From the NCBI RefSeq assembly GCF_016093275.1, contig NZ_JAEDAK010000025.1:1-43750 (forward strand): a stretch of DNA of 43,750 bases. The letters run 5' to 3'. The position numbers and the translations under genes are program-made. Origin of the DNA: Inhella proteolytica (GTDB lineage: Bacteria; Pseudomonadota; Gammaproteobacteria; Burkholderiales; Burkholderiaceae_C). Positions within the stretch are counted from its first letter, which is position 1. Every line of letters begins with the position of its first letter. Of the stretch, positions 3,400 to 18,200 are shown in pieces. The notes below the pieces were generated by a model. That model searched no databases and was not told the DNA's origin. It saw only the letters and a program-made list of their open reading frames with translations.

Positions 3400-4859
3400 G
3401 GCTGGCGCTCCGGCAGCCACAGGCTCACGCGCAGGCCGCCGAGCGGGCTGGGCCCGGCGTCGATCTGCCCGCCATGGCGCTGCACCCAGGCACGCGCGAT
3501 GCTTAGGCCCAGGCCGCTGCCGCTGTCTTTGGCACTCCCTCTTTGGCGCGCCGGATCGGCGCGGAACAGCGGGTCGAAGAGGCGCGGCAGCAGCGCCGGC
3601 GGCACGCCGGGCGGGCTGTCGTCCAAGGTGATGCGCACGCCCGCGCCCTCGTGGGCTGCGGCCAGGCGCAGCTGGCCCGGGGCGTCGGTGTAGGCGCGGG
3701 CGTTGGCGAGCAGGTTGTCCAGCACCTGCACGATGCGCTCGCTGTCCCAGTGCACCCGGCTGGGCAGGGGCTGCAGCGCCAGCTCCAGCTGCAGGCCAGC
3801 GGCCTCCAGCGCGGGGCGGTGGCGCTCGGCCAGTTGCTGCAGCAGGGCCGAGGGGTCCAGCGGCGTGGGCTCGCAGGGCAGGGCCTGCAGGTCGGCCAGG
3901 GCCAGGTGGTGGAAGTCGTCGGCCAGGCGGCGCAGACGGTTCACTTCGGTGCTGAGCGACTCCAGGCGCGCGCTGTTGAGCGGGCGCACGCCGTCGCGCA
4001 CGGCGTCCAGCTCGCCGCGCAACACGGTCAGCGGCGTGCGCAGCTCGTGCGAGAGCTCGGCCAGCCAGCGCCGCCGGCTGGCCTCCAGCCCTTGCAGGGC
4101 CTCGGCCAGGTGGTTCACGTCGTCCACCAGGGCGTCGAACTCATTGCGCGTGGGGGCATTGCGGCGCGGGAGGCGCACGGCGAAGTCGCCCTGCGCCAGG
4201 CGGTGGCTGGCGCCCTGCACCTCGGCCAGCGGGCGCAGCCAGCGCCCGGCCAGGCGCCAGGCCAGCGCCGCGGCCACGGCCGCCACCAGCAGGCCCACGG
4301 CCAAGATGCCGAGCAGCTGGCGGCGCAGGAAGCGCTGGTCCAGCACCTCGGGGGCCTCGGGGCGCGGCAGCAGGCGCGCCAGGGCCACCGTCTGGCCGTT
4401 CAGCACCACCGGTTCTTCCAGCTGCCGGCGCCCCGGCGGCGGGCTGCGGCCCCAGAGCAGCTCGCCGTCGGGCGTATGCAGCGTCAGGCCGCGGCGCGCG
4501 CGTTCGCGCTCGGGGTCGGCGCCGGGCGGGGGTGGGGGTTCGCCGGGGGGACCGTAGCGGCCTTCGCCCCCGCGGGGCGGCCGCCCGCGTGGCGGTGGGC
4601 CGGCTTCGGGCGGGGGCTCGCTGCCATCCTGGCCGGGCGGGCGCAGGTGCTCGGGCTGCTGGCGCAGGCCCTCCAGGCCATGGCGCTCGATGGCGGCGCG
4701 TGCCGCGCCCGCAAAGGCCGTGAGGCGCTGGCGGTCCTGCGTGGCCAGGTAGTCCGAAAAGCCCTGCTGCAAGTGAAAGGCCATGAAGCCGCCCATGGCC
4801 GCCACCGCCAGCAGGGTGGTGGCCAGCAGGGTCAGGGCGAGCTGGTGCGTCAGGCGCAT
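3396..4859 (-). CDS. Sensor histidine kinase (BaeS-like)
   Basis: A 487-aa inner-membrane sensor kinase. It has an N-terminal membrane helix (about residues 8-28), a periplasmic part with a long Pro/Gly/Arg-rich insertion (about 72-120), a second membrane helix (about 182-204), a HAMP linker, an H-box with H271 (AELSHELRTPLT), an N-box (NLLANARAYTDAPG) and a G2 box (GLGLSIARAW). The G1 region reads DDSPPGVP instead of the usual DTGPGI, similar to the DSAPGV form seen in BaeS proteins. It autophosphorylates and passes phosphate to the regulator encoded just downstream (family knowledge). BaeSR systems answer envelope stress; whether this one does is inference. The proline-rich periplasmic insert is low-complexity and probably disordered. 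Confidence 0.92.
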   Translation of the reverse strand: MRLTHQLALTLLATTLLAVAAMGGFMAFHLQQGFSDYLATQDRQRLTAFAGAARAAIERHGLEGLRQQPEHLRPPGQDGSEPPPEAGPPPRGRPPRGGEGRYGPPGEPPPPPGADPERERARRGLTLHTPDGELLWGRSPPPGRRQLEEPVVLNGQTVALARLLPRPEAPEVLDQRFLRRQLLGILAVGLLVAAVAAALAWRLAGRWLRPLAEVQGASHRLAQGDFAVRLPRRNAPTRNEFDALVDDVNHLAEALQGLEASRRRWLAELSHELRTPLTVLRGELDAVRDGVRPLNSARLESLSTEVNRLRRLADDFHHLALADLQALPCEPTPLDPSALLQQLAERHRPALEAAGLQLELALQPLPSRVHWDSERIVQVLDNLLANARAYTDAPGQLRLAAAHEGAGVRITLDDSPPGVPPALLPRLFDPLFRADPARQRGSAKDSGSGLGLSIARAWVQRHGGQIDAGPSPLGGLRVSLWLPERQP

Positions 4860-4887
4860 GGCGGCACTCTAGTGCGCGGCGGCCGGG

Positions 4888-4914
4888 CAACTGTGGAGGG
4901 GCTCTCCACAGTTG
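4888..4914. promoter_or_regulatory. 11-bp inverted repeat in divergent promoter region, candidate operator
   Basis: CAACTGTGGAG (4888-4898) is followed after five bases by its exact reverse complement CTCCACAGTTG (4904-4914). It lies in the 116-bp gap between the divergent kinase and cytochrome peroxidase genes. There is no T-run on either side, so a terminator is unlikely. A binding site for the neighbouring response regulator or another dimeric regulator is the simplest reading, but this is inference. Confidence 0.5.
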
Positions 4915-4975
4915 GCCCATGCTGGCTGCACAGTGCGTGCGCAAGCTGTGCGGCATCCTGTTCCGGAGCCCCGCC

Positions 4976-6268
4976 ATGCGCCCTTGCCGCTCGATCCCTC
5001 TGTTGATTGCCTCCTGTCTGGCCCTGGCCGCCTGCGGTGGCGGCGGCCAAGAGGCCAGCCCCACCGTGCAGGCCGAAGCCGCACGCCCCGCACCGCCGCA
5101 GCCCCCCGCACCGCCGGTACCACCCGCTCCGCCGCTGCCGCCCACCCCGCCGGCCTCGGTTCCCGCGCCCACTCCGGCCCCGACGCCGACTCCCGATCTC
5201 AGCGCCCGCGCCGCCGTGGGCGATCAGCTGTTCCATGAGCGCGCGCTGTCGGCCAGCGGCCAGCTCGCCTGCGCCAGCTGCCACGACCCCGCCCGCGGCC
5301 ATGCCGATCCGGCTGGGCGCTTCCTGCCCATCGGCGGCGCGGGCCACAACCAGCAGGGCCTGCGCAGCTCGCCCAGCATCCGCTACCTCGACCAAGCCGG
5401 CGCCTTCACCCGCGACGCCCAGGGCCAGCCGCGCGGCGGCCTGATGTGGGACGGCCGCTTCAACAGCCGCGTCCAGCAGGCCGCCGGCCCGTTGTTCGCC
5501 GCCAACGAGATGGCCAACGCCAACCTGGCCGAGTTCGCCCAGCGCCTGCGCGCCACGCCGGCCTACCCGGCCCTGCTGAGCGCCTACGGCCTGCCGGCCA
5601 ACGCCAGCGACCAGAGCCTGCTCGCCGCCAGCACCGATGCCCTGGCCCGCTACCAGGCGCAGGATCCGGAGTTCAAGCCCTTCAGCAGCAAGTTCGACGC
5701 CGTGCAGGACGGCCGCGCCAGCTTCACGGCCGCCGAGGCGCGCGGCTTCGCCGCCTTCAACGACCCGCAGCGCGGCAACTGCGCCAGCTGCCACAGCAGC
5801 CGCCCGGCCGGCAATGGTGTGCGTGCGCTGTTCACCGACTTCAGCTACCACGCGCTCGGCGTGCCGCGCAACCAGAGCCAGGCCACGCTGGATCCCAGCT
5901 TCTTCGACCTCGGCCTGTGCGGCCCCACGCGCAGCGACCTGGCGGCCGACGCCACCCTGTGCGGCCGCTTCAAGACCCCGACCCTGCGCAACGTGGCGCT
6001 GACCGGCCCCTACTTCCACAACGCGCGCTTCAACAGCCTGGAGGAGGTGGTGAGCTTCTATGCACTGCGCGATGTCGACCCGGCGCGCTTCTACCCGGTA
6101 CTGAACGGCCAGGTGCAGCGCTTCAACGACCTGCCGGCGCGCTACCAGGGCAATGTGGAGCGCCGCGCCCCCTTCGCCCCGCTGGCCGGCAACCGCCCGC
6201 GCCTGAGCGCGCAGGATGTGCAGGATCTGGTGGCCTTCTTGAACACACTGACCGACCAGCCGAACTGA
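4976..6268 (+). CDS. Di-haem cytochrome c peroxidase/MauG-like lipoprotein
   Basis: A 430-aa exported protein with two c-type haem motifs, CASCH at residues 99-103 and CASCH at 269-273, as in bacterial di-haem cytochrome c peroxidases and MauG-like proteins (CCP_MauG family). The start at 4976 has GGAG seven bases upstream and gives a lipoprotein signal ending LALAAC with the lipid-modified Cys at 20. A Pro/Ala/Thr-rich linker (about residues 37-75) separates the membrane anchor from the catalytic part. Family members reduce hydrogen peroxide to water or oxidise protein substrates in the periplasm. The gene is divergent from the BaeSR-like pair, so co-regulation is possible. An in-frame ATG at 4919 would bury the signal sequence and was not chosen. 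Confidence 0.9.
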   Translation: MRPCRSIPLLIASCLALAACGGGGQEASPTVQAEAARPAPPQPPAPPVPPAPPLPPTPPASVPAPTPAPTPTPDLSARAAVGDQLFHERALSASGQLACASCHDPARGHADPAGRFLPIGGAGHNQQGLRSSPSIRYLDQAGAFTRDAQGQPRGGLMWDGRFNSRVQQAAGPLFAANEMANANLAEFAQRLRATPAYPALLSAYGLPANASDQSLLAASTDALARYQAQDPEFKPFSSKFDAVQDGRASFTAAEARGFAAFNDPQRGNCASCHSSRPAGNGVRALFTDFSYHALGVPRNQSQATLDPSFFDLGLCGPTRSDLAADATLCGRFKTPTLRNVALTGPYFHNARFNSLEEVVSFYALRDVDPARFYPVLNGQVQRFNDLPARYQGNVERRAPFAPLAGNRPRLSAQDVQDLVAFLNTLTDQPN

Positions 6269-6344
6269 GGCCCTGGCGGTACAGCTGAAACCCCTTGTGA
6301 CATGATGAACCGGCTGGGCAGAGGGACCACTGCCGGAGGAAACG

Positions 6345-7100
6345 ATGGCCGCTTGGGGCAAAGCCCTGGGACTGTTGCTGCTGCTGACAACCGCCGCATG
6401 GGCCCAGGGGCCGAGCGTGCGCCTGGGCGCCGTGCAGGACTGGGTGTACGACCCGCGCAAGCCCGATGCCGCCTTGCAGGGCCCAGGCCTGGAAGTGGCC
6501 CGTGCGGCGTTCGGCGTACGCGGCATGGAGGTCGATTTCCAGGTGCTGTCGCAAGGGCAGTGCCTGGCCCAGGTGCGCAGCGGGGCGCTGCCGGCCTGCG
6601 TGGCGGTGCTGCGCAGCACCGGCATGGATGAGACCGACCTGCTGTGGCCCCTGCGGCCGATGTTCAAGGTGGTGCCCAAGATCTATGCGCTGGCCTCCAA
6701 GCCCGCGCCGCGACAGGCGGTGCGCACGCGCGACCTGGAGGGCCGGCGTGTCGCCTTCAACCACGGGCAAAGCCACGGCCCGGAGTTCGACAGCAATCTG
6801 CGCGTGCAGCGCCTGCTGGCCGGCAGCGAGCAGCAGGCCTTCCTGCTGCTGCAGCGCGAGCGTGCGGACTACGCCATCGCGCTGGACTTCGTGGCCCGGG
6901 TGCTGTGGCTGAAGCAGCCGCAGCTGGAGGCGCAGTTCCGGGTCGTGGGCTGGGCGCTGCCCACCGAGGTCTACACCGTGTTCTCGCGCCGGCACCCGCA
7001 GGGCGAACGCCTGTTGCAAGAGTTCGAGGCCGGCCTGCAGCAACTCGCCGAACTGGGCAGCCTGCAGTCCATCGAGAACGGCTGGGCAGCCGGCTTCTGA
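6345..7100 (+). CDS. Orphan family-3 periplasmic solute-binding protein
   Basis: A 251-aa protein with a clear signal peptide (hydrophobic residues 7-20, cleavage near AWAQ) and the two-lobe SBP_bac_3 pattern: an early LGAVQDWVYDP strand, a middle RDLEGRRVAFNHGQSHG hinge segment and a late FSRRHPQGERLLQEF segment. The start ATG has a strong GGAGGA four bases away. Such proteins bind amino acids or similar small polar ligands, usually for an ABC importer, but no permease or ATPase gene is present nearby. Three other orphan proteins of this class occur in the window (starts 11979, 14063 and 29683, all on the minus strand). Ligand unknown. Confidence 0.8.
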   Translation: MAAWGKALGLLLLLTTAAWAQGPSVRLGAVQDWVYDPRKPDAALQGPGLEVARAAFGVRGMEVDFQVLSQGQCLAQVRSGALPACVAVLRSTGMDETDLLWPLRPMFKVVPKIYALASKPAPRQAVRTRDLEGRRVAFNHGQSHGPEFDSNLRVQRLLAGSEQQAFLLLQRERADYAIALDFVARVLWLKQPQLEAQFRVVGWALPTEVYTVFSRRHPQGERLLQEFEAGLQQLAELGSLQSIENGWAAGF

Positions 7101-7116
7101 GTGTCCCGGGCCGGCC

Positions 7117-7806
7117 TCAGGGCTGTGGGCGCAGCGTCAGCTCGCAGTCCAGCTGCACCGCATCCTGCACGGCCAGCAGCCCCCCCAGCAGGCTGAAGGG
7201 GGCCAAGCCATGCCGGCTGTGCTGCAGCACCAGGGCGCCGTGCAGTTGCAGTTGCTCGGGGCGGTGGGCCACCTGCAGCGGCAGCCAGTAGTCGGCCGCG
7301 CGGCCCGCCAGCCAGACGCGCAGTTCCGCCAGCCACCAGGGCGCCGCGCCCTGCAGGCAGCGCAGCTGCAGCCAGACCTCGGGGTGGGCCTGCGCCTGCA
7401 GGGCCGTCAGCAGGTTGCGGCGCGTGGCGGCGATGGCCTCGGCCTTCACCGGTTTCTCGTTGAACTCGCCCCCTGCCGCGGCGCGCCACTCAGGGCGGTC
7501 CAGCTCCAGCTGGTCCAGACGCACGCGCAAACCGCCCTGCGTGCCCTGCAGGCCCTGGGCGGGCAGCCATAGGCGGGCGTCGAAGGTGCCGGCTTGCAGG
7601 ATGTGGTGATGCCCCAGGCGCGCCATGGCGCCGCCGCGAAACGCCACGATGCGCAGCCGTGAGGCCGCGGCATCGGCCTGCCACACCTGGCCCCCGGGCG
7701 GCAGCGCGGTGGGCAGCAATTGCTGCGGCTGCGCGTCGAGCGTTGGAGACGGTGCTTGGGCCGCACAGCCTGCCAATGGCAGGCTGAGCAGGGCGCGCCT
7801 ACGCAT
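7117..7806 (-). CDS. YceI-like lipoprotein
   Basis: A 229-aa predicted lipoprotein: MRRRALLSLPLAGC ends in a canonical lipobox LAGC with the modified Cys at 14. The remainder is a single beta-rich domain with features of the YceI lipocalin-like fold, including a GHHHIL segment near residue 65 and a C-terminal strand set ending DAVQLDCELTL. YceI proteins bind isoprenoid-like lipids in the periplasm; the match is by pattern and moderate. The gene begins nine bases after the stop of the M16 peptidase gene on the same strand, so both are probably one operon. Confidence 0.65.
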   Translation of the reverse strand: MRRRALLSLPLAGCAAQAPSPTLDAQPQQLLPTALPPGGQVWQADAAASRLRIVAFRGGAMARLGHHHILQAGTFDARLWLPAQGLQGTQGGLRVRLDQLELDRPEWRAAAGGEFNEKPVKAEAIAATRRNLLTALQAQAHPEVWLQLRCLQGAAPWWLAELRVWLAGRAADYWLPLQVAHRPEQLQLHGALVLQHSRHGLAPFSLLGGLLAVQDAVQLDCELTLRPQP

Positions 7807-7815
7807 GGCCCAGGG

Positions 7816-10509
7816 TCACTTGAAATCCCCGGCCCAGACGAACTGCATGGCGGCAGTTTTGAGGTACTTGCGCACCGCGGCGTTCACCTGCTCCAGCGTG
7901 GCGGCCTGCAGCTCGGCATCCACCTCGGCGCTGCGCTGCATGGTGCGGCCCAGGTCGGCCTGGCTCTGCAGGGCGCCGGCCAAGCCGCCGTCCTGTGCGC
8001 GGGCCAGGGCGCGGGCGGCCAGCAGGGCGCGCTTGGCATTCGTCAGCTCTTGGGCGCTGAAGCCGTCCTTGGCGGCGCGCTCGAATTCCTCGCGCAGCGC
8101 CTTTTCCACGCGCGGGCGGTTCTGCGGCGCAAAGATGGCGCCGAATTCCCACACGCTGTGCGGCTCGTGGGCATTCCAGTCGATGCTGCCGAAGGTGCCA
8201 TAGCTCAGGCCCTCGCGCTCGCGGATGCGGCTCCACAGGCGCGAGTCGGTGTTCTCGGCCAGGATGTAGTTGGCCAGCATCAGCGGCACGAACTCGGCGT
8301 CGCCTTCCTTGACGGGCAGCGAGAGCGCCACCACGCCCATGGCGTTCTGCTTGTCCGGCGTGGCGATGGTCTTTTCCGCGGCGGGCAGCTCGGCCCAGGG
8401 GCGGGTCAGGCGCTGCGGCGGCAGCTCGGCGCGCCAGTCGTTCAGCAGCGGCGTCACGGCGGCCTGCACGGCGGCGGCGTCGAAGTCGCCCACCAGGGCC
8501 AGGCGCAGCTGGTCGGCGCCGTAGTGGCGGCGGTGGAAGGCGCGCACCTGCTCCAGCGTCACGGCCTTGAGCGCCGGGCCCACTTCGTCGAAGGGGCGGG
8601 TGTTGCGCGCGTCCCCGGCGGGGAACTGGCGGCGCAGTTGCTCCAGCAGGTTGGGGGCCAGCTGCTCGGGTTCGGACTTGGCGGCATCCAGCCCCGCCAG
8701 GGCGACATTGCGCTGCTCCTCGAACACCGCGGCATCCAGGCGCGGCTCGCGCAGCATCTGCAACGCCAGCTGGGCGGCCGCGGCGGCGTGTTCGCGGGTG
8801 GTGGACCAGGCCAGGATCACGCTGTCGCCACCGGCGCCCACCTGCAACTCCATCTTCAGCGCGTCCATGCGGTCGCGCAGCGCGGCGCGGTCCAGGGTCT
8901 GGGTGCCTTCGTCCAGCAGCGCGGCGAGCAGATCGGACACCGAGCGCCGGCCGCGCAGGCTGTCGGCATCGCCGAAGCGCAGCTGCAGGCGGGCCTGAAC
9001 CAGGCCGCCGCGGGTGGGCTTGGGCAGCAGGGCCAGGCGGGCGCCGCTGGGCAGCTGCAGGCGCTGCACCTTGGCCTCGATGGCCAGGGGGGCGGTGTCA
9101 AAGGCGGCCACCGCGGCGGCCGCGTTGGCGGGCTTGAAGGTGTCGAGCTGCGCGGCCACGTTCACGGTTTCGGGCTTGGGCGGGCGCTGCGGCAGCTCGG
9201 TGGGCACGTAGAGCGCGAGGCTGCGGTTGGCTGGCAGCAGGCGTTCGGTGGCCACGCGCTGCACTTCGGCCAGCGGCATTTGTTTGACGCGGTCGCGCAC
9301 CAGGAAAAACAGGCGCCAGTCCCCGGCGGCAATGGCCTCGGAGAGTGCGTTGCCCACCTGCTGCGGGTCACCGAACAGCTTGTCCCAGCGGTTCAGCCAG
9401 CGCGTGCGGGCGCGCTCCAGCTCCTGTTCGCTGATGGGCTCCGTGGCCACGCTCTCCAGCACCTGCACCAGGGCCTTGGACAGCGGCTGCGGGTCGGCGC
9501 CGGGCTGGGCGTCGGCGCCGAAGAGCAGCACGCCGGGTTCGGCAAAGGCGGTGGAGAAGGCACTGACGCTGGCGGCCACGCGCTGCTGCTCCACCAGGCG
9601 CTGGTGCAGGCGGCCGGTGGGGGCCTCGCCCAGGATGCCGGTCAGCAGCTCCACCGCGGCGTAATCCGGGTGAGCCGCGGGCGGCACGTGGTAGCCGGCG
9701 GTGGCGCTGGGGGTGCCGCCCTTGCGGCGCACCACCACCTCGCGCTCACCGTCCTGCACCGGGTCCAGGGTGTAGAGCTTGGGCAGCTGGCGCACGGGCT
9801 TCTTCAGCTTGCCGAAGCTGGCCTCGATCCAGGCCAGGGTCTGCGCCGGCTCGAACTTGCCGGTGACGATCAGGGTGGCGTTGTCCGGCTGGTAGTACTG
9901 GCGGTAGAAGGCCTGCAGGCGCTGGATGTCCACCTGCTCGACGTCGGTGCGGGCGCCGATCGGGCTCTTGCCGTAGTTGTGCCACTGGTACATCAGGCCC
10001 AGCAGGCGCTCGAACACGATGGTGCCGGGGCTGTTCTCGCCCATTTCCATTTCGTTGCGCACCACCGTCATCTCGGTGTCGAGGTCGCGCCGCGCGATGT
10101 AGCTGTTCACCATCGCATCGGCCTGCCAGCCCAGGTACCACTTCAGGTTCTCGGGGTTGGCGGCAAAGCTGGCGAAGTAATTGGTGCGGTCCGTCCAGGT
10201 GGTGCCGTTGAAGTCGAAGCCACGCTTGGCGAACTCGGCCATCACGTAACGGTGCGTCGGCGTGCCCTTGAAGATCAGGTGCTCCAGCAGGTGCGCCATG
10301 CCGGTTTCGCCGTAGTTCTCGTGCTTGCTGCCCACCCGGTAGGTCATGTTCACCGTCGTGCTGGGCTTGCTGGCGTCGGGTGCCAGCAGCACCTGCAGGC
10401 CGTTGGGCAGGCGGTACTCGGTGATGCCCTCGACCGCGCGCACGGGTTTCAGGGGCGCGGCGTGGGCGGCGCCGACGATCAGGGCCAGGCCCAGCATCCA
10501 AGTCTTCAT
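7816..10509 (-). CDS. Two-domain M16 zinc peptidase, periplasmic
   Basis: An 897-aa protein with an export signal (residues 1-18, cleavage near AHA-AP). The N-terminal M16 domain has the inverted zinc motif HLLEH (H73, E76, H77), with a downstream acidic NEMEMGENSPG segment carrying the third ligand. A second M16 unit starts near residue 500 (LPSGARLALLPKPTRGG) and lacks the HxxEH motif, as is normal for the non-catalytic half of pitrilysin-type clamshell enzymes. Length and layout match bacterial zinc-dependent peptidases of the PqqL/insulinase class. Substrate unknown. It is the first gene of a probable two-gene operon with the YceI-like lipoprotein. Upstream lies a strong terminator (10574-10603) that isolates it from the small peptide gene. 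Confidence 0.92.
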   Translation of the reverse strand: MKTWMLGLALIVGAAHAAPLKPVRAVEGITEYRLPNGLQVLLAPDASKPSTTVNMTYRVGSKHENYGETGMAHLLEHLIFKGTPTHRYVMAEFAKRGFDFNGTTWTDRTNYFASFAANPENLKWYLGWQADAMVNSYIARRDLDTEMTVVRNEMEMGENSPGTIVFERLLGLMYQWHNYGKSPIGARTDVEQVDIQRLQAFYRQYYQPDNATLIVTGKFEPAQTLAWIEASFGKLKKPVRQLPKLYTLDPVQDGEREVVVRRKGGTPSATAGYHVPPAAHPDYAAVELLTGILGEAPTGRLHQRLVEQQRVAASVSAFSTAFAEPGVLLFGADAQPGADPQPLSKALVQVLESVATEPISEQELERARTRWLNRWDKLFGDPQQVGNALSEAIAAGDWRLFFLVRDRVKQMPLAEVQRVATERLLPANRSLALYVPTELPQRPPKPETVNVAAQLDTFKPANAAAAVAAFDTAPLAIEAKVQRLQLPSGARLALLPKPTRGGLVQARLQLRFGDADSLRGRRSVSDLLAALLDEGTQTLDRAALRDRMDALKMELQVGAGGDSVILAWSTTREHAAAAAQLALQMLREPRLDAAVFEEQRNVALAGLDAAKSEPEQLAPNLLEQLRRQFPAGDARNTRPFDEVGPALKAVTLEQVRAFHRRHYGADQLRLALVGDFDAAAVQAAVTPLLNDWRAELPPQRLTRPWAELPAAEKTIATPDKQNAMGVVALSLPVKEGDAEFVPLMLANYILAENTDSRLWSRIREREGLSYGTFGSIDWNAHEPHSVWEFGAIFAPQNRPRVEKALREEFERAAKDGFSAQELTNAKRALLAARALARAQDGGLAGALQSQADLGRTMQRSAEVDAELQAATLEQVNAAVRKYLKTAAMQFVWAGDFK

Positions 10510-10573
10510 GGCGAACGGGTGTGCAGCGAAAAGGCGCGCAGCTTAAGGCGCGCGCGGGCCGGCATCCAAAAGC

Positions 10574-10603
10574 AAAAGGCCCGCCTTCGACGGAAGGCGG
10601 GCC
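10574..10603 (-). terminator. Intrinsic terminator of peptide gene copy 1
   Basis: A perfect 11-bp stem (10578-10588 with 10593-10603) and a four-base loop, followed on the minus strand by TTTTGCTTTTGG. It lies 40 bases past the stop of peptide copy 1 and before the M16 peptidase gene. Confidence 0.9.
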
Positions 10604-10620
10604 TGCGGATCGAAGCAACC

Positions 10621-10637
10621 CCGGGGCGCAACCCCGG
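10621..10637 (-). other. 3' UTR hairpin, peptide cassette 1
   Basis: CCGGGG (10621-10626) pairs with CCCCGG (10632-10637) across a five-base loop, between the stop codon and the terminator. The other three cassettes have CCCGGG paired with CCCGGG in the same place (for example 12894-12911). The base change is compensated, which supports a real RNA structure. Confidence 0.55.
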
Positions 10638-10643
10638 TGCGGC

Positions 10644-10871
10644 TTACTGACTGCGTCGTGCGGTGATGACCACGGTGGGAAGCTGGTGCACCACCGCCTT
10701 GTGGCCGGTGACCACCACCGTGGGCAGCTGGTGGATGACCGGGGTCACCATTTCCATCGGGGCCGAGGCCAGGGCCGCGGCGCTGGCGAAGGTCAGGCCC
10801 ACCATGGTGATCAGGGTCAGGCCTTCGGTCAGGGTGTTCAGAACCGGGCGGGTGTTGAAGGACTTGCTCAT
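10644..10871 (-). CDS. Small exported HQLPTV-repeat peptide, copy 1
   Basis: A 75-aa protein of unknown function. The start at 10871 is chosen because an AGGAG site lies seven bases upstream and because all four paralogues begin here (M-S/T-K-S-F-N-T-R-P). An in-frame extension to 11042 has no conserved counterpart. Residues 17-37 form a hydrophobic segment ending ASA, a likely signal peptide with cleavage after A37. The remaining roughly 38 residues contain two repeats, HQLPTVVVTGHK (47-58) and HQLPTVVITARR (62-73), spaced by 15. This copy is the most divergent of the four. The repeat ends resemble TonB boxes (VVVTG, VVITA); this is only a pattern resemblance. No modification, transport or immunity genes lie next to it. 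Confidence 0.85.
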   Translation of the reverse strand: MSKSFNTRPVLNTLTEGLTLITMVGLTFASAAALASAPMEMVTPVIHQLPTVVVTGHKAVVHQLPTVVITARRSQ

Positions 10872-10897
10872 GGTGTGCTCCTGGGGGGCTTGGGGTT

Positions 10898-10920
10898 GTC
10901 GATGGCTGGACTGTGTCGAC
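10898..10920 (-). promoter_or_regulatory. Conserved 5' leader element, peptide cassette 1
   Basis: The 18-mer CACAGTCCAGCCATCGAC (minus strand; 10898-10915) occurs in all four peptide cassettes, 26-27 bases before the start codon. It is bounded by GTCGA and TCGAC (10898-10902, 10916-10920), which could pair. Either an RNA leader structure or part of the promoter. Confidence 0.5.
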
Positions 10921-11121
10921 CCAGGGTTTTCCCGTAAATCGCGCTGCGATGGATTGCGGCTCAGCGTGAGCCAACTGCGCGCAGGGCCGATCAACCGCGG
11001 CCTGGGCGCCTCGTCTGCCTGCTCACCGAGCAGGTCGAACACGCCAGGGCTGCATCAGCGGGCGGAAAGATGCACACCGCACCTTCTGGGTGCGTCGCAG
11101 GGCGGGTGGCCGTTGAAGGAC

Positions 11122-11979
11122 CTAGCGCCTATTCACCGGAACCGGGCTTTTGTCAGTGATCTTCTTGATGGCCACGTCCAACCGGTGCATGACGTCCTCG
11201 GGAACGCTTTTGCTGCACAGCAAATGCCGGGGCTCGCCGGGTGGCATGTTCTTGTAGCGGATCTGCACGAAGTCGGCGAGTTGGAAACCGGCGGCCTCAA
11301 TGGCAACGGCCGCTTCCTCGGGCGCCATCAGCATGTAGTCGGCCATCCCCAGCTTGATCTGCCGGACCATCAGCAGGTTCTCGTCCGGAGTGGCCCGGCG
11401 GTTGGGCTGCAACCTTTCGATGAGCGAATCTAGCGGTGCACCGTAGGAGTAAGCCAGCTTGACCAGCAAGCGCAGCGACTTGTCATTGAACAAGTCCTCG
11501 ATCGAGGCGTAGCCCTTGAACCGCTGCTGATTGCTGGCGGCAGCAAGAACCAGTTGCGGCTGATCCTGGTAAACCGGCTTGCTGTAGCGGCCGAACTCCT
11601 CCCGCTCGGCCTTCCAGAACATGCCGATCATGCAGTCCTGCCCCGTGTTTTCTTTCAGGGAGCGGAGCTGACGCGCGAAGGGGGTTTCCTCGATGCGCAC
11701 CGGTACTTGCGCCAGCTTGAACGCTTGGTAGGACGGCCCCCCCGTCAAGCCGACCAGGCCCTCGCCTTGCACCATCATGTAGGGCGGGCGCTGAACGTAA
11801 TGCAGGGTCACGGGCCGCTCAACGGGTACCTGCGCAGCGGCCATCACCGGCCACAGCAAGCTGCCGACCGCACCCGCTGCACGTGACGCGGTTCGGCGTA
11901 CATGTCCGCAGACGCGCCGCGTACCACGGCCTAACCGAACAACAAGGCTTGGCATCGCTGAGTTGGGCTTGTCTTTCAT
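11122..11979 (-). CDS. Orphan family-3 solute-binding protein
   Basis: A 285-aa predicted periplasmic binding protein. Recognisable parts are the opening LHYVQRPPYMMVQGEGLVGL, the FARQLRSLKENTGQDCMIG segment and a C-terminal LDVAIKKITD helix, typical of polar amino acid binding proteins. The start is uncertain: ATG 11979 (MKDKPNSAMPSL) has a poorly spaced GAGG, ATG 11955 has none, and the signal sequence (about residues 22-48, ending AAAQ) is preceded by an unusually long basic stretch. No ABC permease is nearby. It lies between the M50 protease gene and peptide copy 1, all on the minus strand, with 250 bases of non-coding leader before the peptide start. Confidence 0.75.
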   Translation of the reverse strand: MKDKPNSAMPSLVVRLGRGTRRVCGHVRRTASRAAGAVGSLLWPVMAAAQVPVERPVTLHYVQRPPYMMVQGEGLVGLTGGPSYQAFKLAQVPVRIEETPFARQLRSLKENTGQDCMIGMFWKAEREEFGRYSKPVYQDQPQLVLAAASNQQRFKGYASIEDLFNDKSLRLLVKLAYSYGAPLDSLIERLQPNRRATPDENLLMVRQIKLGMADYMLMAPEEAAVAIEAAGFQLADFVQIRYKNMPPGEPRHLLCSKSVPEDVMHRLDVAIKKITDKSPVPVNRR

Positions 11980-12085
11980 GGCCTCGCCGTGGTCTTCAAC
12001 CCCACCAAAAGCGCATCGGTGCTTGCCGGGTCTGGCGCAGGCTCTCTGCCGGGCTGCGCGCGACCCTGAACCCATGTTACGGCCC

Positions 12086-12826
12086 TCACACCCCCGCGCC
12101 ACTCCGGGCGGCACGAACATGCGCCAGCATCTCGTGCACCTCATGCGTCATCACCGCCAGGAAGAGCACCAGCACCAGGTAATAGGCCGCCCACTCCCAG
12201 CGTTTGGCCGGGCTGACCTGGTAATAGCCGGCTGCCTGCGGGCTGTTGCGAAACTTCCAGACGCTCCAGGCCTGCGGGGCGGCCAGCAGCATCAGGATCA
12301 GCAGCACCGGGCTCGGGTTCCAGAAGAACACCGCACCCAGGATGGGCAGGCCGAGCAGCCAGATCTTGGGTGAGAGCACCGCGGTGATGCGTCCGCCATC
12401 GAAAGGCGGCAGCGGCACCAGGTTGAAGAGGTTGAGGAAGAAGCCGCTGTAGGCCACGGCCAGCAGCCAGGGCGTGTCGCCACTGTTTCGCGCCAGGAAG
12501 TAGCAGACCAGCGCCCCGATCGTGCCCAGCAGCGGCCCGCCCATGCCCACGAAGGCCTCGGTCTCGGCGTCGTGCGGCATCTTCTTCATCTCGATCCAGG
12601 CACCCAGAAAGGGGATGAAGGTGGGCAGCCCCACCGGCAGGCCCTTCACGCGGGCGGCGATGTAGTGGCCCATCTCATGCACGAACAGCAGCGCGATGAA
12701 GCCGGCCGCGTAGCGCCAGCCAAAGATGAAGGCGTAGATGACCAGCGAGATCAGCATGCTGCCGCCGCTGGCCAGCAGCGGGCCGAGCTTGGCGCCGGAA
12801 AAGAGCAGGGCGAGGAGCTTGAGCAT
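12086..12826 (-). CDS. Site-2-type (M50) intramembrane metalloprotease
   Basis: A 246-aa polytopic membrane protein with the M50 zinc motif HEMGH (H50, E51, H54) inside a membrane helix and the second conserved motif NLVPLPPFDGGR (136-146, D143 the expected third zinc ligand). At least five hydrophobic helices are visible. No PDZ domain is present, so this is the short rhomboid-like S2P class rather than RseP. Such enzymes cut membrane-spanning segments, including remnant signal peptides. It is flanked by two small exported peptide genes, which makes processing of those signal peptides an attractive but untested idea. A terminator (12856-12883) separates it from peptide copy 2. Confidence 0.92.
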   Translation of the reverse strand: MLKLLALLFSGAKLGPLLASGGSMLISLVIYAFIFGWRYAAGFIALLFVHEMGHYIAARVKGLPVGLPTFIPFLGAWIEMKKMPHDAETEAFVGMGGPLLGTIGALVCYFLARNSGDTPWLLAVAYSGFFLNLFNLVPLPPFDGGRITAVLSPKIWLLGLPILGAVFFWNPSPVLLILMLLAAPQAWSVWKFRNSPQAAGYYQVSPAKRWEWAAYYLVLVLFLAVMTHEVHEMLAHVRAARSGAGV

Positions 12827-12855
12827 GGGGCGGGATTGTCCGGGCCCAGAAGGGC

Positions 12856-12883
12856 AAAAGGCCTGGCGGGTGGCCAGGCCTTT
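12856..12883 (-). terminator. Intrinsic terminator of peptide gene copy 2
   Basis: AAAGGCCTGGC (12857-12867) pairs with GCCAGGCCTTT (12873-12883), loop GGGTG, followed by TTTT on the minus strand. The same stem occurs in cassettes 3 and 4 with different loops (GGATG, GAATG). Confidence 0.88.
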
Positions 12884-12893
12884 GCGTGGGGAA

Positions 12894-12911
12894 CCCGGGG
12901 CTGCACCCGGG
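12894..12911 (-). other. 3' UTR hairpin, peptide cassette 2
   Basis: CCCGGG (12894-12899) and CCCGGG (12906-12911), separated by six bases, can pair between the stop codon and the terminator. Cassettes 3 and 4 carry the same hairpin; cassette 1 has a compensated variant. Confidence 0.5.
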
Positions 12912-12917
12912 CGGGGC

Positions 12918-13142
12918 TTACGCGACGTGGGCGCGCTTGGCGACGACGACCACCGTCGGCAGCTGGTGCTTCTTGACGGTGATCTCGACGGTGGGCAGCT
13001 GGTGGACGACGGGTTCCACCATTTCGATCGGGGCCGAGGCCAGGGCCGCGGCGCTGGCGAAGGTCAGGCCGGCCATGGTGATCAGGGTCAGGCCCTCGGT
13101 GATCTTGGTCAGGGCGGGGCGGGTGTTGAAGCTCTTGGTCAT
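12918..13142 (-). CDS. Small exported HQLPTV-repeat peptide, copy 2
   Basis: A 74-aa protein of unknown function, identical in amino acid sequence to copy 3 (14153-14377). A signal-like hydrophobic segment covers residues 17-37 (cleavage likely ASA-PIE). The mature part carries HQLPTVEITVKK (47-58) directly followed by HQLPTVVVVAKR (59-70), a 12-residue tandem repeat, and a basic end. AGGAG lies seven bases before the ATG. The gene has its own leader element (13169-13197) and terminator (12856-12883), so it is probably transcribed alone. The identity to copy 3 with only one silent difference indicates recent duplication or gene conversion. Confidence 0.88.
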   Translation of the reverse strand: MTKSFNTRPALTKITEGLTLITMAGLTFASAAALASAPIEMVEPVVHQLPTVEITVKKHQLPTVVVVAKRAHVA

Positions 13143-13168
13143 GGTGTTCTCCTGGGTGCAGCGGGGGT

Positions 13169-13197
13169 GGTCGATGGCTGGACTGTGAACCTCGACC
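13169..13197 (-). promoter_or_regulatory. Conserved 5' leader element, peptide cassette 2
   Basis: The 18-mer shared by all cassettes is at 13170-13187. GGTCGA (13169-13174) and TCGACC (13192-13197) flank it and could form a 6-bp stem. The distance to the start codon is 27 bases. Confidence 0.5.
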
Positions 13198-13271
13198 GCC
13201 CGCGCGCCCAGGGCCTTGCGCTGAACCGACGCGGCGGGCGGATGAGCTGCAGCCCGCGCCGTTGAACGGAG

Positions 13272-14063
13272 TCAGCGCTGCAGGTGGCGCGCCAGCAACT
13301 GCTGCAGCTCACCGCTGCGTTCCAGCTGGGACAGCCCCGCTTGCAGCGCCGCTTGCAGCGCCGGCCCGAGCGGGTGCTGGCGGCTGACCATCATGTGGAA
13401 GGCATTGGGCCGCTGCACCGCCAGCGGGGCGCGGCCGAGCTCGCGGTCCTGCGCCAGTTCGTAGCCCGGCAGACCGGCCAGGCCGTGGAAGACCTCTTCG
13501 CCCACCACGATTACGTCGATGCGGCCCAGATGCAGCATCGCCACCAAGCTGGCGTAGTTCGGGGCGCGCTGCAGGCTGGCCATGTCGATCTGGTCCAGCT
13601 GCGAGTAGGTGTAGCCATGCACGCCGCCCAGGCGGTAGCGCTTCAGATCCGCCTGGCCCTGCACCTGCAGGCCCTGGGGGTGCACGCGCTTGCTCCAGAA
13701 GTAGTAGGTGCGCGTGCTGTAGATCGGGGCGCTGATGAGGAACTCGCGCTCGCGCTCCGGGTTGCGGGTGGCGTTGAGCAGCATCTGGTAGTTCTGCCCG
13801 CGCCGCACCTCCTGCAGGCAGCGGGCCCACGGCAGCAGCTCAATGCGGTACCTCATGCCCAGCGGCTGCAGCAGGCGTTCGAGCAGGTCGACCGAATAGC
13901 CCCGCACCCGCCCGGTCTTGCGGCCGTCCTGGCGCTCCACATAGGTATAGGGCGGCCACTCGTTGGCGTCGTCGCAAACTTGCACCGTCCAGCCACGCAG
14001 CCGCTCATCCGCCTGGGCCGGCACACCGCCCAGCAGCAGGATGAGGATCAGAAGCAGACGCAT
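13272..14063 (-). CDS. Orphan family-3 solute-binding protein between duplicated peptide genes
   Basis: A 263-aa periplasmic binding protein with a short clean signal peptide (MRLLLILILLLGGVPAQA). It shows the usual family-3 elements: VCDDANEWPPYTY, GYSVDLLERLLQPLGMRY, LLPWARCLQEVRRGQ, FLISAPIYSTRTYYFWSKR and a C-terminal LQAGLSQLERSGELQQLLARHL helix, as in polar amino acid binding proteins. The ATG at 14063 begins the signal peptide; the longer open frame upstream runs through peptide copy 3 antisense and is not used. It is flanked by the 404-bp direct repeats, so recombination between them would delete it. No transporter partners are visible. Confidence 0.85.
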   Translation of the reverse strand: MRLLLILILLLGGVPAQADERLRGWTVQVCDDANEWPPYTYVERQDGRKTGRVRGYSVDLLERLLQPLGMRYRIELLPWARCLQEVRRGQNYQMLLNATRNPEREREFLISAPIYSTRTYYFWSKRVHPQGLQVQGQADLKRYRLGGVHGYTYSQLDQIDMASLQRAPNYASLVAMLHLGRIDVIVVGEEVFHGLAGLPGYELAQDRELGRAPLAVQRPNAFHMMVSRQHPLGPALQAALQAGLSQLERSGELQQLLARHLQR

Positions 14064-14081
14064 GGAGTCCACCTTAGCTCC

Positions 14082-14118
14082 AAAAAAGCACAAAGGCCTG
14101 GCGGATGGCCAGGCCTTT
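14082..14118 (-). terminator. Intrinsic terminator of peptide gene copy 3
   Basis: AAAGGCCTGGC (14092-14102) pairs with GCCAGGCCTTT (14108-14118), loop GGATG, followed on the minus strand by TTTGTGCTTTTTTG. It lies 18 bases upstream of the solute-binding protein start at 14063. Confidence 0.88.
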
Positions 14119-14152
14119 GCGTGGGGAACCCGGGGCTGCACCCGGGCGGGGC

Positions 14153-14377
14153 TTACGCGACGTGGGCGCGCTTGGCGACGACCACCACCGTCGGCAGCTG
14201 GTGCTTCTTGACGGTGATCTCGACGGTGGGCAGCTGGTGGACGACGGGTTCCACCATTTCGATCGGGGCCGAGGCCAGGGCCGCGGCGCTGGCGAAGGTC
14301 AGGCCGGCCATGGTGATCAGGGTCAGGCCCTCGGTGATCTTGGTCAGGGCGGGGCGGGTGTTGAAGCTCTTGGTCAT
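14153..14377 (-). CDS. Small exported HQLPTV-repeat peptide, copy 3
   Basis: A 74-aa protein of unknown function whose sequence is identical to copy 2: signal-like segment 17-37, then two adjacent 12-residue repeats starting HQLPTV (47 and 59) and a basic tail ending AKRAHVA. The ribosome site AGGAG, the leader element (14404-14432), the 3' hairpin and the terminator are all conserved too. It lies just upstream of the solute-binding protein gene at 13272-14063 on the same strand but is separated from it by the terminator, so the two are probably not one transcript unless termination leaks. Confidence 0.88.
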   Translation of the reverse strand: MTKSFNTRPALTKITEGLTLITMAGLTFASAAALASAPIEMVEPVVHQLPTVEITVKKHQLPTVVVVAKRAHVA

Positions 14378-14403
14378 GGTGTTCTCCTGGGTGCAGCGGG
14401 GGT

Positions 14404-14432
14404 GGTCGATGGCTGGACTGTGAACCTCGACC
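14404..14432 (-). promoter_or_regulatory. Conserved 5' leader element, peptide cassette 3
   Basis: The shared 18-mer is at 14405-14422, flanked by GGTCGA (14404-14409) and TCGACC (14427-14432). It sits 27 bases before the start codon. Confidence 0.5.
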
Positions 14433-14629
14433 GCCCGTGCGCCCAGGGGCGTGCGCTGAACCGACGCGGCGGGCGGATGAACTGCAGCCGGCGGCGGTGA
14501 GTGGTTTCACGCGGCCAATCGCTGGGGGCGTCGCATTCCTGAATGCCCACACCCTGCACGGGGCGGAGTCGGGTTCAGCAGAAGGCCCAGCCAGGCGAAC
14601 CCAGCGCGCGTGGCGCTGCGACCAGCCCG

Positions 14630-14664
14630 AAAAGCACAAAGGCCTGGCGAATGGCCAGGCCTTT
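14630..14664 (-). terminator. Intrinsic terminator of peptide gene copy 4
   Basis: AAAGGCCTGGC (14638-14648) pairs with GCCAGGCCTTT (14654-14664), loop GAATG, followed by TTTGTGCTTTT on the minus strand. Confidence 0.88.
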
Positions 14665-14699
14665 GCACGGGGGAACCCGGGGCTGCACCCGGGCAGGGC

Positions 14700-14924
14700 T
14701 TACGCGGTGTGACTGCGCTTGACCGTCATCACCACTGCGGGCAACTGGTGCTTCTTGACGGTGATCTCGACGGTGGGCAGCTGGTGCACGACCGGCTGCA
14801 CCATCTGGATGGGTGCGGTGGCCAGGGCGGTGGCGCTGACGAAGGTCAGGCCGACCATGGCGATCAGGGTCAGGCCCTCGGTGATCTTGGTCAGGGCGGG
14901 GCGGGTGTTGAAGCTCTTGGTCAT
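14700..14924 (-). CDS. Small exported HQLPTV-repeat peptide, copy 4
   Basis: A 74-aa paralogue of copies 2 and 3. The first 21 residues are identical to theirs; changes appear in the signal segment and the mature part (APIQMVQPVV; second repeat HQLPAVVMTVKR). Repeats begin at residues 47 and 59. The start at 14924 has the same AGGAG spacing as the other copies; an open-frame extension upstream to 15071 is not conserved. The pattern of change (repeat core kept, other positions varied) suggests selection on the HQLP-A/T-V core rather than drift, but four sequences are too few to prove this. Confidence 0.87.
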   Translation of the reverse strand: MTKSFNTRPALTKITEGLTLIAMVGLTFVSATALATAPIQMVQPVVHQLPTVEITVKKHQLPAVVMTVKRSHTA

Positions 14925-14949
14925 GGTGTTCTCCTGGGTGCAGCGGGGT

Positions 14950-14978
14950 GGTCGATGGCTGGACTGTGAGCCTCGACC
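14950..14978 (-). promoter_or_regulatory. Conserved 5' leader element, peptide cassette 4
   Basis: The shared 18-mer is at 14951-14968, flanked by GGTCGA (14950-14955) and TCGACC (14973-14978), 26 bases before the start codon. Confidence 0.5.
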
Positions 14979-15083: not shown

Positions 15084-15114
15084 TCGCGCTCAGGGGGCTT
15101 GTCCAGCCCGGCCC

Positions 15115-15258
15115 CTAGATGGGTCCAGTCCTTCGGCGCGCGTCACCGGGTCCTCAGGACCTCGCTCGGTCGCGACTCGCCCAGCTTGGCCCCCCTAGAT
15201 GGGTCCAGTCCTTCGTCGCGCGTCACCGGGTCCTCAGGACCCGGCTCGGTCGCGACTC
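15115..15258. repeat. Tandem direct repeat, period 80 bp, about 1.8 copies
   Basis: CTAGATGGGTCCAGTCCTTC begins at 15115 and again at 15195, and the copies match at about 60 of 64 positions. The second copy contains a perfect 9-bp inverted repeat, CCGGGTCCT (15226-15234) with AGGACCCGG (15236-15244), and a GTCGCGAC palindrome core; its end runs into the oxidoreductase stop codon (15257-15259). Function unknown; it could be a REP-like or species-specific dispersed element. Confidence 0.8.
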
Positions 15259-18200
15259 AGCCATTCCACTGGGCCAGCAGGCGCTCCCACTTGGGCATCA
15301 CGGCCTTCACGTGACGCTCCTTCACATGGCCATAGCCACGGATGTCTTCCGGCAGGCGCGCCAGTTCCACCGCCTGCTCCAGGTTGGCCACGCTGAGCTT
15401 GGCCAGCAGCGCGTCGACCATCTTCTTGTAGCGCTGGATCAGCTCGCGCTCCATGCGGCGCTCTTCGGTGTAGCCGAACACGTCCAGCGCCGTGCCGCGC
15501 AGGCCCTTGAGCTTGGCCAACACCGCGAAGGCCGGGCGCACCCAGGCGCCGAAGGGCTGCTTGACCAGTTCGCCCTTGTCGTTCTTTTTGGCGAACAGCG
15601 GCGGGGCCAGGTGGTGCACCAGCTTGTAGTCGCCCTCGAACTGCGCGGCCACCTTGGCCGTGAAGCTCGGGTCGGTGTGCAGGCGGGCCACCTCGTACTC
15701 GTCCTTGTAGGCCATCAGCTTGAACAGGTACTTGGCCACGGCCTCGCTGAGTGCCTTGCCGGCGCCGAGCTTCTCTTCGGCGGCGCGCACCTTGTCCACC
15801 ACGGCCTTGTAGTCGGCGGCGTAGGCGGCGTTCTGGTAGCCGGTCAGGAACTCGACGCGCTTCGCGACCATCTCGTCCAGGCCGGGGCGCTTGACGATCT
15901 GGATCACCGACTCCGCGGCAAACAAGGCCTTGACCTTGGCGTAGTCGGCGGCGCAGCGGCGGCCCCATTCGAAGGCGGCCTTGTTGTTGTCGATCTGCAC
16001 GCCGTTCAGTTCAATGGCGCGCTGGATGGCGGCGTAAGAGAGCGGGATACGGCCCTGCTGCCAGGCGAAGCCCATCATCAGCGGGTTGGTGTAGATCGAA
16101 TCGCCCAGCAGCTTGACGGCCACTTCCTCGGCGTCGAACTTGCCCAGCAGCTCCTTGCCGACGGCGTTCTCCAGCGCCTGCTCGCAGGCACCCTCGGGGT
16201 GCTGCCAGTCGGGCTGCAGCACGAAGGCGGCGGTCGGGCTGCTGTGCGTGTTCAGCGCCACATAGGTGCGGCCCGGGCGCATGGTCTGCAGCGTGGCCTT
16301 GTTGGCGGCCACGATGGCGTCGCAGCCGATGATCAGATCGGCCTCGGCGGTGCCGACCTTGGTGCAGTGGATGGCGTCCTGGGTGTTGGCGATCTGGATA
16401 TGGCTCCAGGTGCTGCCGCCCTTCTGGGCCAGGCCGGCGGCGTCCTGCGTCACCACGCCCTTGCCTTCCAGATGCGCGGCCATGCCGAGCAGCTGGCCGA
16501 TGGTGATGACGCCGGTGCCGCCGACGCCGGCCACCACGATGCCCCAGGCCGTCTCGCAGCTCGGCAGGGTGGGGTGGGGCAGCTCGCCCAGCAGGGCGTT
16601 GTCGAAGGGCGAGTTCTTCTTGGCCTTGGCCTTCTTCAGCTGGCCGCCTTCCACGGTGACGAAGCTGGGGCAGAAGCCCTTCACGCAGCTCAGGTCCTGG
16701 TTGCAGCTGTTCTGGTTGATGGTGCGCTTGCGGCCGAAGTCGGTTTCCAGTGGCTCAATCGACATGCAGTTGCTCTGCACGCCGCAGTCGCCACAGCCCT
16801 CGCAGACCAGCTCGTTGATGACGACGCGCTTCTCGCTGACGGCCATCTTGCCGCGCTTGCGGCGGCGGCGCTTCTCGGTGGCGCAGGTCTGGTCGTAGAG
16901 GATGGCGGTGGTGCCGGCGATCTCGCGGAACTCGCGCTGGATGCTGTCCAGCTGGTCGCGGTGGTGCACCAGCACGCCCGGGGGCAGGGCCACGCCGGTG
17001 TACTTCTCCGGCATGTCGGTGACGATGCAGAACTTCGCCACGCCTTCGCTGATCACGCTCTGCATGATCTGCAGCACCGAGTGCCCTTCGGGGCGCTCGC
17101 CGACCTGCTGGCCGCCCGTCATGGCCACCGCGTCGTTGTAGAGGATCTTGTAGGTGATGTTCACGCCCGCGGCGATGCTCTGGCGGATGGCCAGGATGCC
17201 GCTGTGGAAGTAGGTGCCATCGCCCAGGTTCGCAAAGATGTGCTTGGCGTTGCTGAAGGGCTGCTGGCCCACCCAGGGCACGCCCTCGCCGCCCATCTGC
17301 GTGAAGGTGGCGGTGTTGCGGCCCGGCATCCAGCTCACCATGTAGTGGCAGCCGATGCCCGCCACGGCGCGCGAGCCCTCGGGGACCTTGGTGCTGGTGT
17401 TGTGCGGGCAGCCCGAGCAGAACCAGGGCACGCGGTCGGCACCGCCGGCCACTTTGAGCTCGTCGGTCAGGGCGCGGTCCTTGGCCTCGATGACGGCCAT
17501 GCGCGCATCCAGGCGCGCGGCCACGTCGGCGTCCACGCCCAGGCGCTTGAGGCGGCGGGTGATGGCGCGGGCAATGAGGGCCGGCGTCAGGTCGGCCTGG
17601 GCGCGCAGCAGCCAGCGGTCGCTGGGGTTGGGGCTGGCCCATTCGCCGCCGCTGCGGTCGCCTTCGGTTTCCTCGAACTTGCCCAGCACGTTCGGGCGCA
17701 CGTCCGGGCGCCAGCCGTACAGCTGTTCCTTGATCTGGTATTCGATGACCTGGCGCTTTTCCTCGATGACGAGGATCTCCTGCAGGCCGGTGGCGAAGTC
17801 GCGCGTGATGGTCGCTTCCAGCGGCCACACCACGTTCACCTTGTGCAGGCGGATGCCCAGGCGGCGGCAGGTTTCGTCGTCCAAACCCAGGTCGTGCAGG
17901 GCCTGGCGGGTGTCGTTGTAGGCCTTGCCGGAGGCGATCAGGCCGAGACGGTCGTGGGCGCCCTCGATGACGTTGTAGTTCAGCTTGTTGGCGCGCACGT
18001 ACGCCAGGGCCGCGTACCACTTGTAGTCCATCATCCGCGCCTCCTGGTCCAGGGGCGGGTCGGGCCAGCGGATGTGCAGGCCGCCTTGCGGCATCTCGAA
18101 GTCCTCGGGCATGAGGATCTTGACGCGGTCGGGGCTCACGTCCACCGTGGCGCCGCTCTCGACGATCTCCTGGATCGTCTTCATGCCGCTCCACAGGCCC

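Follow-up and report, generated by a model that had tools for sequence, protein, structure and literature searches.

The TonB box is present in all TonB-dependent receptors and TonB-dependent colicins, and the receptor box adds as a strand to the C-terminal domain of TonB, relying on strand form more than on side chains (PMC11658791). A cell has about 300-1000 TonB molecules, whereas a single receptor species numbers 500-14,000 (PMC11658791). The C-terminal domain of TonB binds a free 12-residue TonB-box peptide weakly, with a dissociation constant of about 50 uM (PMC3602595). Here, we describe an array of four small genes in Inhella proteolytica that appear to encode such boxes in tandem, as free-standing exported peptides. 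The array lies on contig NZ_JAEDAK010000025.1 (assembly GCF_016093275.1), in the 43,750-nucleotide stretch that was analysed (positions 1 to 43,750; hereafter, the window).

Small proteins with tandem TonB-box-like repeats

The array consists of four minus-strand genes of 74-75 codons each (Table 1). Their proteins have a hydrophobic segment at about residues 16-36, followed by two HQLP(T/A)V... repeats. This agrees in substance with a first-pass annotation of the same DNA, which had described four same-strand small genes with two such repeats and an export-type N terminus. It had missed two features, namely the likeness of the repeats to a TonB box and the occurrence of the leader element across the family. 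The repeat unit, L-(P/E/D)-(R/T)-V-(V/E)-(V/I)-(T/V/E)-(G/A)-(K/R)-(R/S/K), resembles a TonB box in sequence. Across 324,576 bases (the window plus 20 fetched stretches, picked for lying round such genes), 39 open frames carry the double-box pattern and none do in the same DNA reversed, which is more than chance would produce.

Our favoured reading, held at slightly less than even confidence, is that the products of the four genes are tandem TonB-box peptides, free-standing and facing the periplasm, which would occupy TonB and modulate or protect its use. The peptides probably bind TonB; that they act as a decoy or buffer is a step we take more tentatively.

The likeness to receptors emerged from an unplanned test with profile A4, which was built from 22 small proteins and zero receptors and run on 150 genomes of the bacterial family. 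The check covered the matches listed in open frames of at least 600 codons. Among these matches, 42 of 45 were TonB-dependent receptors with a plug, as judged with a plug model derived from 30 plugs of the own genome; they comprise 38 of 40 fetched loci, three own-genome receptors assigned by position and frame length, and L130. The other three were an exported protein with a box (L135), a probable antisense frame (L144) and a peptide at a contig edge (L124). In all 38 receptors checked, the A4 match spans the segment immediately ahead of the plug, in one frame with it, and in 37 the box nearest the best plug domain lies 15-26 residues before the plug. In the 38th (L145) the rule chose another site, yet the A4 match contains KLETVVVTGIR. 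A phylum-wide search of 398 genomes gave the same picture, with all five long-frame matches being plug-bearing receptors, four of them new. Judged by sequence, the N-terminal segment and box of the peptides resemble the same region of the lineage's own TonB-dependent receptors.

The boxes can be compared directly. Receptor boxes of the same genome include QLDTVVVTGIRKS, KLERVVVTGSSIK and QLETVVITAERR, while the peptides carry QLPTVVVTGHK and their relatives KLERVVITGKR, QLPRVVITGKR and RLDTVTITAKR. A box matrix of 10 columns was built from 25 own receptor boxes, leaving out the 5 of 30 own receptors without a recognised box (L032, L042, L047, L051 and L054). For each of the 12 peptides tested, the best box was equalled by at most 1 in 1000 tail shuffles. 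Both boxes of copy 1 scored highly (23.5 and 21.5 bits), with 0 of 1000 shuffles equalling either. Among 836 open frames of the array stretches, peptide and receptor frames included, 1-15 equalled the best boxes and 8-61 the second boxes of these 12 peptides.

One of the non-receptors found by A4 is of separate interest. L135 (G088 C56:142024-142164) is a large exported protein in which a signal-like segment is followed by LERVEVAGKK, hinting that TonB-box-like N termini may occur in other periplasmic proteins.

In the proposed mechanism, the tail, short and probably unstructured, holds two TonB-box-like strands (relatives have as many as four) but no further domain, and would face the periplasm either cleaved or membrane-anchored. 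As TonB molecules are outnumbered by their receptors, a two-box peptide made abundantly from several gene copies would compete for TonB and occupy it. Such occupancy could buffer, ration or protect TonB in genomes with dozens of receptors, possibly with phage and bacteriocin entry being blocked.

A conserved family in and beyond Inhella

The family is not restricted to the array. The same genome also has a fifth copy (92 residues; C44:205779) and a sixth (65 residues; C22:422092) that is more distant and has degenerate boxes. All five Inhella congeners examined have 3-4 matches each (expectation value, E, 0.01), and a profile search covering three of them found 3-5, so the repeat core is kept outside this strain and the earlier suggestion that several copies are retained extends to the genus. 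Among 14 chosen coding-sequence pairs, the nonsynonymous rate (dN) was below the synonymous rate (dS) in 11.

At the level of the bacterial family, a profile made from the Inhella copies found matches in 41 of 250 genomes (E 0.001) and the wider A4 profile in 35 of 150, with a best match of 1e-9 or better in 26 of those 35, own genome included; some weaker matches among the profile-matched genomes are receptors rather than peptides. The fetched loci yielded 76 distinct proteins that carry two boxes or more, and these relatives span other genera of the family. One of them, from L174, holds an undefined residue (X, from an N in the record); the 75 clean proteins exclude it and are 73-124 residues long (median 85). 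Box-to-box spacing has a median of 18 across the 76. Repetition of the box is a constant of the family: there are two boxes in 70 of the 75 clean proteins, three in 4 (L080, L082, L083 and L174) and four or more in 1 (L091). The four clear boxes of L091 read LPTVTVVGQR, LPEVTVIGKR, LPTVTIIAKR and LPTVTIIGQR. L192, from outside the family, has three: LATITIVGKR, LQTVTIVAKR and LPTITIVGKR.

Export is suggested throughout. A 15-residue window with a mean hydropathy of at least 1.67 precedes box 1 in 75 of 75 clean proteins, and 74 of 75 have an AxA-like site under a loose rule that would fit either cleavage or an anchor. From box 1 onward, 55 of the 76 proteins contain no cysteine, 19 contain two and 2 contain one, counts that would be expected in an oxidising compartment. 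In all 19 two-cysteine relatives (e.g. L024, L084 and L181) the second cysteine is the C-terminal residue, and the pair could possibly form a disulphide loop.

As the first-pass annotation had supposed, there is no named family for these proteins: the window copies match no Pfam family at E 1, and the 22 members of A4 match none below E 0.01; no NCBIfam family matched at E 0.01 either. The family is sizeable, conserved and without a named family in the libraries searched. Sortase-like LPxTG and ribosomally synthesised, post-translationally modified peptide (leader/core) readings were also considered, and a look at the sequence revealed no supporting gene for either. No account of free-standing TonB-box mini-proteins was found in the open-access literature, a search that most subscription journals lie outside.

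Beyond the bacterial family, an order-wide search of 300 genomes (E 1e-6) gave matches in two, the own genome and G258, and a phylum-wide search of 398 (E 1e-5) gave matches in five, with only these same two matched by peptides. These searches scored at most 18 and 13 candidates per genome, respectively, and no other known carrier is among the matches listed; absence of the family elsewhere in the order or phylum is therefore weakly supported.

A shared upstream element

A 16-nucleotide element, CACAGTCCAGCCATCG, is identical at the four copies, with its 3' end 28-29 nucleotides ahead of the start codon. Across six Inhella genomes, exact CAMAGTYCAGYCAYCG occurs 18 times, 17 of them just before family genes (one of which is single-box). 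The eighteenth precedes an exported-type protein of 54 residues that lacks a box. When one mismatch is tolerated, the count rises to 29 occurrences, comprising 21 before family genes, 1 before the box-less protein and 7 before neither, versus 10 in a reversed control. The box-less protein (MNLRLPPLLSDLLAALALVGLAFVGASLLSK...; L010 1970-2134) has its element at G000 C44:206209-206224, 484 nucleotides after the element of the fifth copy.

A related element is found in upstream regions of other genera, from which CGAMACTGNANTCACTGACACAGC was drawn by eye. Allowing up to three mismatches, CGAMACTGNANTCACTGACACAGC has 25 matches in 12 of 14 carrier genomes and 0 in reversed sequence. Twenty-one of these lie 17-34 nucleotides before a two-box protein, 12 of them outside the regions used for drawing; the other four have three mismatches each. 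Under a loose rule, either form of the element is present in 62 of the 76 upstream regions and neither in 14, versus 2 in the reversed control of one form. The family therefore seems to have a promoter or leader element in common. An arrangement CTGG-N17-GCCGAMACTG may also be made out by eye in several of 30 upstream regions. The sigma-70 consensus promoter was found 0 times in the window. A known RNA family was considered and set aside, the four matches all falling far below their gathering scores.

Genomic context and receptor counts

Genomes with the family tend to be rich in receptors. Plug domains per genome have a median of 34 in 25 carriers versus 6 in 32 non-carriers (p 1.4e-6), or 6.8 versus 1.9 per megabase (Mb; p 9e-6, genome sizes rounded). 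The comparison excludes ten genomes (with weak matches only, or own) and G013 (65% complete), and 13 non-carriers (G029 to G047), which do not appear by name among the matches listed, were taken as examined without a match. G044, G045, G047 and G014 are 74-89% complete, as are the carriers G049 and G088 (86%). A wider proposal, which we regard as more doubtful than a decoy role in itself, is that receptor-rich members of the bacterial family may make dedicated, co-regulated, exported mini-proteins, composed solely of tandem TonB boxes, that compete with receptors for TonB and set the sharing of TonB energy or block hijack by phages and bacteriocins.

Neighbouring genes were surveyed by BLAST clustering in 20 stretches from 15 genomes plus the window. 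Fourteen clusters occur in at least three stretches, and ten of these were annotated: uvrA (7 stretches), a recQ-type helicase (7), a hybrid kinase (5), a GGDEF-EAL protein, a cyclase-ATPase and a prolyl oligopeptidase (4 each), a DUF2807 protein and a LytTR regulator (3 each), and two further clusters without a family. There is no clear partner among these ten. Receptor and peptide genes are convergent neighbours in three genomes (L179 2165-5401, L182 2643-6027 and L184 6905-10580). A plasmid location was also considered; the one query used gave no match.

These data bear on the nearest rival to the decoy reading, a helper role. Here, an anchored peptide would keep the TonB C-terminal domain folded or monomeric, or would park TonB and hand it to receptors, acting as a positive adaptor or chaperone that helps uptake. 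The box evidence serves this explanation equally well, the hydrophobic window present in every clean protein could hold the peptide in the membrane beside TonB, and the own genome has 8 TonB_C matches alongside its 33 plug matches. However, TonB, ExbB and ExbD are not among the ten annotated neighbour clusters, and sequence does not separate a helper from a decoy; we consider the helper role unlikely.

The survey also touches on the idea that the peptide is released as a signal or antagonist and enters neighbouring cells through its TonB box, as TonB-dependent colicins do. Small, export-type, multi-copy proteins with variable C-terminal tails and cysteine pairs would suit this role, and colicins are the known non-receptor TonB-box proteins (PMC11658791). 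Against this, the peptides have no Pfam domain, boxes fill most of the tail, and no exporter or toxin gene is found in the ten annotated clusters, where a small immunity gene could escape notice. We consider release for entry into other cells very improbable.

The first-pass annotation had instead looked to the genes interleaved with the array, an M50 protease and two orphan binding proteins, as possible partners. In G003, gene order is conserved between the array and the genes for the M16 protease, the M50 protease, one binding protein and the indolepyruvate oxidoreductase; in G002, the M50 protease and binding protein keep their place beside the array. The M50 protease and binding proteins are absent from the array loci examined in G001, G004 and G005, the search being limited to those loci. 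With neighbours kept in only two of five congeners, a general partnership was set aside. The interleaved binding proteins (11122-12144 and 13272-14063) are stand-alone family 3 solute-binding proteins, the first falling below the Pfam cut-off.

Points that weigh against TonB binding

Several observations count against the proposal that the peptides occupy TonB, the main sequence argument being proline at box position 2. Proline is found there in all 18 Inhella two-box proteins. Across the 76 proteins it occupies this position in 73 second boxes (with D in 2 and E in 1) and in 39 first boxes (with E in 35 and D in 2), and it was seen by eye in just 3 of 63 receptor boxes. Proline substitutions inside the strand inactivate TonB boxes (PMC11658791). 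The peptide proline takes the place of the receptor D/E, ahead of the strand.

The same feature favours another explanation, namely that the tail is a beta-strand peptide for some other partner or for envelope self-assembly, having converged on or descended from a receptor N terminus without TonB binding. Departures at positions 7-8 (EITVKK, VEGRR) are, like the proline, unlike receptor boxes, and beta-branched residues alternate in the strands. In contrast, the profile singles out receptors among long frames in both searches (42 of the 45 listed, and 5 of 5), and 37 of the 76 relatives have acidic, receptor-like first boxes, leaving this explanation rather unlikely.

The remaining points against TonB occupancy concern individual boxes, binding and context. 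The box motif is only about 10 residues long. Second boxes are weak in copies 2 and 3 (12.7 bits; 5 of 1000 shuffles equal), copy 4 (8.9 bits; 32 of 1000) and the fifth copy (8.0 bits; 58 of 1000). The 12-residue peptide that binds TonB did not bind the paralogue HasB (PMC3602595), so binding to every TonB should not be assumed for a box peptide. The structure model, with a helix at residues 10-36, a tail without structure and no strand, is of low confidence (predicted local distance difference test score, pLDDT, 54). Three of the 14 chosen pairs do not have dN below dS, and a plug-bearing receptor gene lies beside a peptide gene in just 3 of 20 stretches. The receptor-count association ignores shared ancestry and narrows within genomes of 3.7-6.5 Mb (6.8 versus 3.1 plugs per Mb, p 0.0026). 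There are clear exceptions in both directions, with just 5 plugs in the carriers G094 and G111 and 42, 30 and 28 in the non-carriers G021, G026 and G023.

Organisation of the array

Copies 2 and 3 are a recent duplicate, with 97.8% DNA identity across 409 nucleotides, flanks included. Copy 1 shares 75-81% nucleotide identity with the other copies across 253-304 nucleotides.

Each copy is followed by two 3' hairpins, with RNA fold z-scores of -3.9 to -5.9 versus shuffles, and the terminator scan, which applies a T-run rule, lists copies 1 and 3 only. The four genes had been proposed as independent transcription units, each with its own leader, hairpin and terminator. The upstream element and hairpins are present at all four, in support of self-contained units; an intrinsic terminator is clear at copies 1 and 3 and likely at copies 2 and 4. 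A near-perfect tandem repeat of about 80 bases (tagatgggtccagtccttcg...cgcgactc) was also seen by eye at 15110-15262, in the interval between copy 4 and the oxidoreductase gene.

Table 1. Genes, upstream elements and 3' hairpins of the array (window positions; coding sequences include the stop codon; z, RNA fold z-score)
Feature	Position	Strand	Details
Copy 1, 3' hairpins	10565..10646	-	second hairpin then T-rich tail; in terminator scan; z -3.9
Copy 1, coding sequence	10644..10871	-	75 residues; boxes LPTVVVTGHK and LPTVVITARR
Copy 1, upstream element	10900..10915	-	CACAGTCCAGCCATCG, exact match
Copy 2, 3' hairpins	12848..12920	-	z -3.9; outside T-run rule list
Copy 2, coding sequence	12918..13142	-	74 residues; boxes LPTVEITVKK and LPTVVVVAKR
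Copy 2, upstream element	13172..13187	-	exact 16-nucleotide match
Copy 3, 3' hairpins and terminator	14084..14155	-	in terminator scan; z -5.9
Copy 3, coding sequence	14153..14377	-	74 residues; protein identical to copy 2
Copy 3, upstream element	14407..14422	-	exact 16-nucleotide match
Copy 4, 3' hairpins	14630..14702	-	z -5.6; outside T-run rule list
Copy 4, coding sequence	14700..14924	-	74 residues; boxes LPTVEITVKK and LPAVVMTVKR
Copy 4, upstream element	14953..14968	-	exact 16-nucleotide match

Comparison with known TonB-box proteins

The array proteins are neither receptors nor colicins; most likely, they are natural tandem TonB-box peptides. With TonB-dependent receptors they appear to share an export-type N terminus and, soon after it, a TonB-box-like strand that basic residues trail, a resemblance in which the window copies have proline at position 2. 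Unlike receptors, they have no plug (PF07715) and no barrel, the entire window proteins being 74-75 residues long; at 65-124 residues, they are standalone genes with repeated boxes and their own upstream element.

Group B (TonB-dependent) colicins are likewise non-receptor proteins with a TonB box (PMC11658791), which the peptides match by resemblance. However, the peptides match no killing or receptor-binding domain, for which 74-75 residues leave no room, and they are chromosomal and multi-copy with what looks to be a Sec-type N terminus. The ten annotated neighbour clusters of 14 include no candidate for a colicin-type immunity gene, although small genes could escape this survey. Synthetic TonB-box peptides are also short, free and box-bearing, and for one of them binding to the C-terminal domain of TonB at about 50 uM is documented (PMC3602595), but these are single-box laboratory reagents, whereas the peptides described here are natural and tandem.

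How a few hundred TonB molecules are apportioned among a much larger number of receptors has been raised as an open question (PMC11658791). If the peptides bind TonB, they would constitute a natural, built-in competitor of adjustable dose that makes this question testable. Should they not bind TonB, they would still represent a sizeable family, so far unannotated, that has an upstream element of its own. If they do bind it, they would add a third class to the two known kinds of TonB-box protein, receptors and TonB-dependent colicins, and could serve as a template for TonB inhibitors.

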